DNA of 40,281 nt from Chloroflexota bacterium (GTDB taxonomy: Bacteria > Chloroflexota > Anaerolineae > UBA4142 > SHND01), in NCBI GenBank assembly GCA_029778615.1, contig JAKOPZ010000045.1, positions 1 through 40,281 on the forward strand. Direction: 5' to 3'. The number at the start of each line of letters is the position of its first letter. Within the stretch, counting starts at the first letter, position 1. The notes under the pieces are model-generated. The model ran no database searches. It was not told the DNA's origin and saw only the letters and a program-made list of their open reading frames with translations. This document shows positions 12,961-25,373 of this stretch, piece by piece. The translations under genes and the position numbers were made by a program.

Positions 12961-13006
12961 TGTCATATCGAACGGAGTGAGATATCTCACTCCGTTCGAT
13001 ATGACA
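12961..13006. repeat. 46-bp perfect palindrome (TGTCAT...ATGACA)
   Basis: Arms of 23 bp (12961-12983 and 12984-13006) begin TGTCATATCGAACGGAGTG and meet at GAT|ATC without a spacer. The outer sequence TGTCATxTCGA is shared with the ends of the longer element at 26947-27058, suggesting one dispersed family. It ends 10 bases before the start codon of the glutaredoxin-thioredoxin reductase gene and replaces any visible ribosome-binding site. Confidence 0.95.
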
Positions 13007-22031: not shown

Positions 22032-23429
22032 ATGAAAATTTTATTGGTGTCACCGGAAGCGCGCGTGTGGAATTCGCGCACGCATATTCACAACGGACTC
22101 GGTTATCTCGCGGGCGCGTTACTGCACGCGGGGTATGCAACCGACATTTACGACGGCGCGGTAGAAGACGAATCGCTCGACGCGCGGTTGACGCGCGAGC
22201 CGTTCGACATTGTAGGCATCTCGGCGCCGACGCCGCTCATTAACGAAGCATGGGCATACGCGCGCATCGCCAAAGAACACGGCGCGATAACGATTCTCGG
22301 CGGTCCGCATTTGACGTTGATGCCCGATGAATCCATCGGGCGCGCCGATGTGGATTTTGTAGCGCGCGGCGAAGCGGAAGAGACGCTGGTTGAATTTGTA
22401 GAGGCGTTGAATTCAACGCCTCTACAAATTCAACACATTCGCGGCTTGTCGTGGAAAGACGCGGACGGCAAAATTTTTCACAACGTGGACCGTTCGTTGA
22501 ATCCGAATCTCGATGCTCTGCCCTTTCCCGCGTATCATCTTTTCAAAATTGACCGCTACACCAATTTGCAGCCGTTGACGGACGGACTCGACAAGCACGC
22601 GCGGTCGTACACGATTGTTACCTCGCGCGGCTGTCCGTACAAATGCACATACTGTTCCAAACCGATTACGGGCGATACGTGGCGCGCGCGTTCGGTGGAA
22701 AACGTTTTGCGCGAATGGAAAATGCTCGTCGAAGATTTGGGCGCGACAGAAATCGGCGTGACGGATGACATTTGGAATTTGGACCTCAAGCGCGCCAAAG
22801 AGTTGTGTCGCGGGCTCATTGAAATGAAATTGAATCGCGTGCCGTGGATTACCGTACACGGTATGAAAGTAAATCACACTGACGCGGAATTGTTTCGCTT
22901 GATGAAGCAGGCGGGGGCGAAACGCGTGGGCTTTGGCGTGGAAAGCGGCGACGAAGAAATTTTGAAACGCGTGGTGAAAAAATCCCAGACGTTTGAACAG
23001 GTGCGCGCGGCGTTCAAAAATGCGAAAGCGGCGCGTCTCCAGACGATGGGCTTTTTCATTTACGGCATGCCCGGTGAAACAGAAGCGACAATGGAAAAGA
23101 CGACGCAGCTCGCGTTGGAGCTCGACCCCGACCTCGCGCACTTTATGATTGCGGCGCCGTATCCCGGCACTGTGCTGTGGGACACGGTTCAGCGTCAAGG
23201 AAAATTGTACGCCAAAGATTGGGGCGATTTGGCGATACAGTCCGACCACGCGCACTTTGATTTTCCGGGTATGGACCCGCAGCTTGTGGAACGCAAATGG
23301 CACGAGGCGTACCGCCGCTTTTATTTTCGCCCCAAACGTTTGTGGAAACGCGCGACGAGTTTGGATACATGGAAAAATCTGCCCGAACGCGTCAAAGATG
23401 CGCAGAGGTTTTTTGTCGCATCGCAATAG
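22032..23429 (+). CDS. B12-binding domain radical SAM protein
   Basis: This encodes 465 residues, starting one base after the preceding stop. Residues 1-135 form a cobalamin-binding-like Rossmann domain (starts K-I-L-L-V-S-P, with G-G-P-H-L-T near 90). From about 190 the radical SAM domain carries [10 protein letters not shown] (C201, C205, C208) for the 4Fe-4S cluster, [10 protein letters not shown] and Y-G-M-P-G-E-T. The family includes methyltransferases and ring-forming enzymes acting on unreactive carbons; the substrate is unknown. Residues 120-135, linking the two domains, are encoded by a 46-bp perfect palindrome (22389-22434), which appears to be a mobile repeat fixed in frame. Confidence 0.92.
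22389..22434. repeat. 46-bp perfect palindrome inside the radical SAM gene
   Basis: Arms of 23 bp (22389-22411 and 22412-22434) read GTTGAATTTGTAGAGGCG and onward, meeting at GAA|TTC. The TAGAGGCG...CGCCTCTA core resembles dispersed TAGAGAC-type palindromes of Chloroflexota and cyanobacteria, as far as I recall them. It is translated without a stop as [16 protein letters not shown]. Confidence 0.95.
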
Positions 23430-24129: not shown

Positions 24130-24166
24130 AAAAAACGAGACGCTTGCAACAAGCGTCTCGTTTTTT
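24130..24166. terminator. Bidirectional terminator between convergent genes
   Basis: AAAAAACGAGACGCTTG (24130-24146) and its exact complement (24150-24166) surround a three-base loop. The A and T ends make it efficient in both directions, for the USP gene on the plus strand and the Thr/Pro-rich protein gene on the minus strand. Confidence 0.95.
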
Positions 24167-25332: not shown

Positions 25333-25373
25333 AAAACCAAGCCCGTTGTCGCGACGACAACGGGCTTGGTTTT
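25333..25373. terminator. Terminator below the leucyl aminopeptidase gene
   Basis: AAAACCAAGCCCGTTGTCG (from 25333) pairs with CGACAACGGGCTTGGTTTT (to 25373) around a three-base loop. It lies 15 bases beyond the stop of the minus-strand aminopeptidase gene. Confidence 0.92.

Follow-up and report, generated by a model that had tools for sequence, protein, structure and literature searches.

The core of a palindrome within a Chloroflexota B12-binding/radical SAM protein gene is very probably a copy of a small mobile GTAG...CTAC repeat

RESULTS

A perfect palindrome lies in frame inside a gene for a B12-binding/radical SAM protein, and its core is, we conclude with good confidence, a copy of a small mobile GTAG...CTAC palindrome family of this Anaerolineae lineage, most likely moved by RAYT transposases, that landed in the interdomain linker together with a 9-nt inverted copy of its flank. 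The features concerned, numbered along the window (the whole 40,281-nucleotide stretch of DNA analyzed), are as follows.

22032..23429, + strand: B12-binding/radical SAM protein gene, 465 aa (Pfam PF02310 and PF04055), with orthologues in relatives
22089..22397, + strand: B12-binding domain (PF02310), residues 20-122, a Pfam match that stops just 5' of the core
22614..23111, + strand: Radical_SAM domain (PF04055), residues 195-360, Pfam match
22389..22434, no strand: whole perfect palindrome, 23-nt arms, spacer 0, protein residues 120-135
22389..22397, + strand: left outer arm GTTGAATTT, coding for V-E-F and ancestral to the gene; congener G002 (L074) has the identical sequence and G003 has GTGGAATTT
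22398..22425, no strand: 28-bp core GTAGAGGCGTTGAATTCAACGCCTCTAC = GTAGAGGCG-TTGAATTCAA-CGCCTCTAC, one of the dispersed GTAG...CTAC repeats, encoding VEALNSTPL(Q)
22426..22434, + strand: right outer arm AAATTCAAC, complementary to 22389-22397, with no counterpart in congeners

The two 23-nt arms (22389-22411 and 22412-22434) are 100% complementary without a spacer, and only ~1e-7 such palindromes would be expected by chance in 6.0 Mb. A sequence-only reading of this DNA had pointed to a perfect 46-bp palindrome translated as residues 120-135, and on both counts, including the reading frame within the 465-aa protein, it was right. Spacerless palindromes with 23-nt arms numbered two, this one included, in 1.35 Mb of the genome, a non-random sample taken partly around repeat matches. 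The other one, at 12961-13006 (TGTCATATCGAACGGAGTGAGAT plus its complement), immediately precedes a glutaredoxin-like gene and comes from another repeat family than the 22398-22425 core. A larger dispersed family (TGTCATTTCGAGCGGAGCGAGAAATCTC...), with 124 matches in the genome at ≤2 mismatches, includes it as a short form, and two more of the short 46-bp forms occur at L126 and L259. The window also holds long near-perfect hairpins near gene ends at 25333-25373 and 24130-24166 (19- and 17-nt arms, 3-nt loops), whose A- and T-rich ends suggest terminators.

The unit that recurs in the genome is the 28-bp core and not the 46-bp whole. Searching for GTAGRGRCG N0-30 CGYCYCTAC gave 18 copies in this genome (6.0 Mb) against 0 in the control, and 2-57 copies per genome in 19 of 19 relatives; a broader pattern gave 32 copies here, with 11 in the control. 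The copies are mostly 28 or 29 bp long (units of 26-29 bp) and share the consensus GTAGRGRCG, a self-complementary middle, and CGYCYCTAC, the ends being conserved and the middles variable yet still self-complementary. The core agrees with the family at all conserved positions and has its standard 28-bp length. An exact genome search for TAGAGGCG...CGCCTCTA, the check proposed along with the sequence-only reading, returned the window copy and no second one, because A/G positions in the stem vary; the 18 copies emerged with a pattern that let the stem vary. The proposal that a mobile palindromic repeat had inserted into the gene stands as regards a dispersed and apparently mobile family, but has to be narrowed to the core. 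No exact copy of the 28-bp core was present in the viral contigs searched.

Of 395 other genomes of the class that were searched, two (G008 and G009, both of other genera) have the exact middle TTGAATTCAA, and there it is read in frame in unrelated genes as VGALNSTPL and VGTLNSTSL, compared with VEALNSTPL in the window. No other evidence speaks as strongly for arrival of the core as an element. Two other ideas were set aside. Variable middles do not seem to derive from the target, because the middle ATTCATGAAT of the copy in L276 recurs elsewhere. Inverted copying of coding sequence, considered at first for the entire palindrome, was rejected for the core once the family and the shared middle had come to light, but is retained for the outer 9 bp.

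In-frame copies are not confined to the window gene. At least 10 of the 32 broad-family copies in this genome lie in frame inside conserved genes, the window gene included; the others are listed here by locus.

L117: aminotransferase
L218: O-antigen ligase (Wzy_C)
L251: HEAT-repeat protein
L281: TrpE
L285 and L287: two nSTAND1 NTPases
L374 (contig C337): glutamate synthase, two elements
L371: serine-carboxypeptidase-like protein
L276: conserved protein with no Pfam match

Hosts of in-frame copies in relatives comprise prolyl-tRNA-synthetase-like, HemC-HemD, amine oxidase, nitrilase-family, LytR, alpha-amylase, and glutamate synthase genes, and the HemC-HemD copy is positioned between two Pfam domains, as in the window gene. 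An assembly artefact of this metagenome-assembled genome, with its 372 contigs and with hairpins able to confuse assembly, has a probability that we regard as negligible: the frame and the gene are intact across both sides of the element, and many genomes that were assembled separately have similar elements in frame, the corresponding sites being empty in congeners.

Those empty sites reveal what an insertion adds. The O-antigen ligase gene is 11 codons longer than in 5 of 5 congeners. The glutamate synthase gene has gained 12 codons at one site relative to G001, G002, G003, and G005, and G004 has its own family element there (both element sites of L374 are in fact occupied in G004, and neither is in the other congeners). 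TrpE carries elements in this genome (G000) and G001 (+6 codons) that are absent from G003, G004, and G005. In G009 (L421), the same TrpE loop holds an in-frame TGTCATTGCGAGG-type repeat; one loop is therefore used by different repeat families.

Each net gain is a multiple of three, never 28 or 29, and bases must therefore have been lost or added around each insertion. Of 74 copies, 16 have arms that extend outward by 5 to 11 nt into sequence specific to the locus, and the rest extend by 0-3 nt, with the proviso that a few of the extensions are inflated by adjoining repeat copies and that others, A-tracts between genes among them, may have arisen differently. Glutamate synthase, with 36 nt gained in all (29 + 7) and an outward arm extension of 8 nt, favors inverted copying of the flank over insertion into pre-existing palindromes. 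The Wzy_C and aminotransferase gains of 33 nt each are ambiguous between the two.

In the window gene, the palindrome sits at the edge of the B12-binding domain and the linker, the former ending at residue 122 (nt 22397) and Radical_SAM starting at residue 195 according to Pfam. We aligned orthologues from ~50 distinct genes of the class. After a conserved glutamate, EF-[VML]-x-[AV]-L is common in homologues, where its codons are ordinary and non-palindromic; G002, for example, has GTTGAATTT ATG CAG GCG TTG where the window gene has GTTGAATTT GTA GAG GCG TTG. This conservation, and the presence of GTTGAATTT in G002, identify the left outer arm as ancestral. The left half of the core (V-x-A-L) also coincides with conserved homologue residues, and part of the core could be ancestral. 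The sequence-only reading had named as contrary evidence homologues with the same residues in non-palindromic codons, and such homologues exist for the left-arm half (EF-V-x-A-L) only. The right outer arm probably arose by inverted copying of the left flank, making the outer 9 bp local and not family sequence. The window copy would then be consistent with flank copying, its left 9 nt being ancestral and its right 9 nt the inverted copy.

The linker 3' of EF-V-x-A-L is extremely variable between species, and other species have different, often repeat-like sequence there (for example, CTCACCCCTGACCCC... in G001 and AGTCAACAGTCAAC... in another genus). Repeat-like fillings that are read in frame and differ by species occur in orthologues L032, L034, L033, L037, L041, L042, and L044. 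Over the compared span, the linker measures 44 residues here; homologues have 42-95, and two of the congeners have 46. No congener offers a clean empty site for the host gene, since their linkers all differ and the window linker is no longer than theirs. Given these lengths and this variability, there was no simple 15-residue gain, and the expectation that the linker would be shorter by about that much in some homologues was not borne out. Old variable linker sequence was instead probably replaced in the window gene, and the linker is a place of arrival and loss for foreign repeats.

A replication template switch at the central short palindrome TTGAATTCAA, copying the ancestral left arm backwards, could account for an alignment of that arm with conserved EF-V-x-A-L coding sequence, for a linker without length gain, and for an outer right arm resembling an inverted copy; there would be no mobile element, and the likeness to GTAG repeats would be coincidental. 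We consider this unlikely, as such a coincidence would have to supply a core that fits the family at every conserved position at its standard length, with a middle shared by unrelated genes of two other genera, and we roughly estimate its probability at ~1e-3 to 1e-4. A template switch may nonetheless be the source of the outer 9 bp of a palindrome whose core arrived as a family copy.

As RNA, the palindrome is predicted to fold into a hairpin of very high stability (-42.5 kcal/mol, z -8.8), which would suit a regulatory RNA or DNA structure of the gene kept by selection, such as a translational pause or attenuator, as would the fact that another gene retains palindromes at one site in five species despite sequence change. 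Set against this, no aligned orthologue of the host gene has a matching palindrome at the site, all Rfam matches to the hairpin were sub-threshold with no family reaching its gathering score, and the copies lie in unrelated genes at unrelated positions. A regulatory origin therefore seems very improbable to us.

The other gene just mentioned, which encodes a STAND-like ATPase, carries palindromes at a shared codon site in five species, which represent four genera; their middles are as follows.

G008: TTGAATTCAA
G012: CAAAATTTTG
G006: TTTAATCAAA
G009: CAATTAATTG
G011: TTTGATCAAA

Three of these palindromes are perfect; that of G006 has one mismatch and that of G011 two. G009 has an identical 28-mer at two sites of the gene. 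At a second site of the same gene (L337 1102-1129; L408, L410, and L411), four species have nested or longer palindromic inserts. The first site is either an insertion hot spot or a place where resident copies are overwritten, and since under either reading it holds different palindromes in five species, perfect arms do not date an arrival. The suggestion that the perfect arms of the window palindrome betray a recent arrival is accordingly given up.

The genome has four Y1_Tnp matches. One of these, a RAYT-like gene between mutS and mutL (L293 1417-2261, contig C164), matches NCBIfam NF047646 in two pieces, being broken by a TGTCAT-family repeat, and has the perfect family palindrome GTAGCAACGGAACCAGGTTCCGTTGCTAC on both sides. 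The RAYT of G009 is intact, scores above the NF047646 cut-off, and stands between two identical copies of a perfect 28-bp palindrome, GTAGGACAAATTTATAAATTTGTCCTAC. The flanking palindromes differ from the core in middles and stems (GGAACC type in this genome, GGACAAATTT type in G009); none of the RAYT-flanking palindromes found is of the exact GTAGRGGCG subtype, and flanking family palindromes are absent from most other Y1_Tnp genes examined in the order. From the two flanked genes, we infer that RAYTs likely mobilize the family.

DISCUSSION

REP elements take their name from an extragenic location, and the best-known setting for palindromic insertions in frame is Rickettsia, in which they are readily explained by genome decay. 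In the present case, large-genome Chloroflexota hold palindromes inside conserved enzymes such as TrpE, glutamate synthase, HemC-HemD, and a prolyl-tRNA-synthetase-like protein, and small mobile palindromes would thus be adding short peptides to the proteins of these bacteria. The empty sites in congeners and the same-site replacement across genera make two questions testable, namely, by what steps RAYTs insert hairpins and whether palindromes regularly give rise to new peptide loops.

We propose that the family copies are non-autonomous and are moved, most likely, by RAYTs, which recognize GTAG-tagged hairpins in single-stranded DNA. Copies would land both within and between genes, and those keeping the frame in loops or linkers would survive. 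The window copy would have inserted where the B12-binding domain ends and replaced variable linker sequence, with a 9-nt inverted copy of flanking gene sequence bringing the palindrome to 46 bp. A broader view, which we advance tentatively and with doubts that slightly outweigh our confidence, is that small, fully paired, RAYT-mobilized GTAG...CTAC palindromes of Anaerolineae insert in frame, time after time, into the same loops of conserved genes, each with a variable inverted copy of its flanking target. The version active in a genome would overwrite residents, and one codon site would thus keep a palindrome over the age of several genera while the sequence of that palindrome changes.

RAYT genes with GTAG-headed REPs on their flanks have been described (Nunvar et al. 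2010, PMC2817692), and both intragenic REPs and GTAG repeats in Chloroflexi have been reported (Di Nocera et al. 2013, PMC3733652). The present family resembles GTAG REPs, which are 20-40-bp palindromes with a terminal GTAG (26-29 bp here), in being dispersed in multiple copies, in having subfamilies with complementary stem changes, and in flanking RAYT genes (intact in G009, broken in this genome), albeit with subtypes other than that of the window. It differs in that the GTAG of described GTAG REPs is an unpaired tag at one end, whereas here it is paired with CTAC and the element is symmetric, although our search pattern required both ends. Its copies number in the tens and not the hundreds, and the intragenic share is large (at least 10 of 32) compared with described GTAG REPs, some of which are reported inside genes.

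The intragenic CGTC repeats of R. conorii correspond to RPE-4 and RPE-6 (PMC3733652). With the Rickettsia palindromic elements (RPE-1, RPE-4, and RPE-6), the family shares palindromic repeats lying in frame in many unrelated functional genes, and its in-frame copies uphold the comparison that the sequence-only reading had drawn. The host is a different one, however, and the likeness drawn here is one of analogy. RPE-1 is longer, whereas copies of this family encode only ~9-12 residues, and the RPE trait of a host longer than its element-free homologues holds for other family copies but not for the window gene. Cyanobacterial small dispersed repeats, which Elhai et al. are said to have described in 2008 as very small (~21-27 bp) and mobile in free-living bacteria, are alike in size and in having free-living hosts, a likeness of description. 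Perfect inverted repeats likewise lie inside functional coding genes in the mitochondria of Nematomorpha (PMC6649704); these are longer, conserved protein is encoded by each of the arms, and the abstract of that account mentions no dispersed mobile family. In summary, the element is best filed as a fully paired variant of the GTAG-type REP elements that behaves, by analogy, like the Rickettsia palindromic elements.
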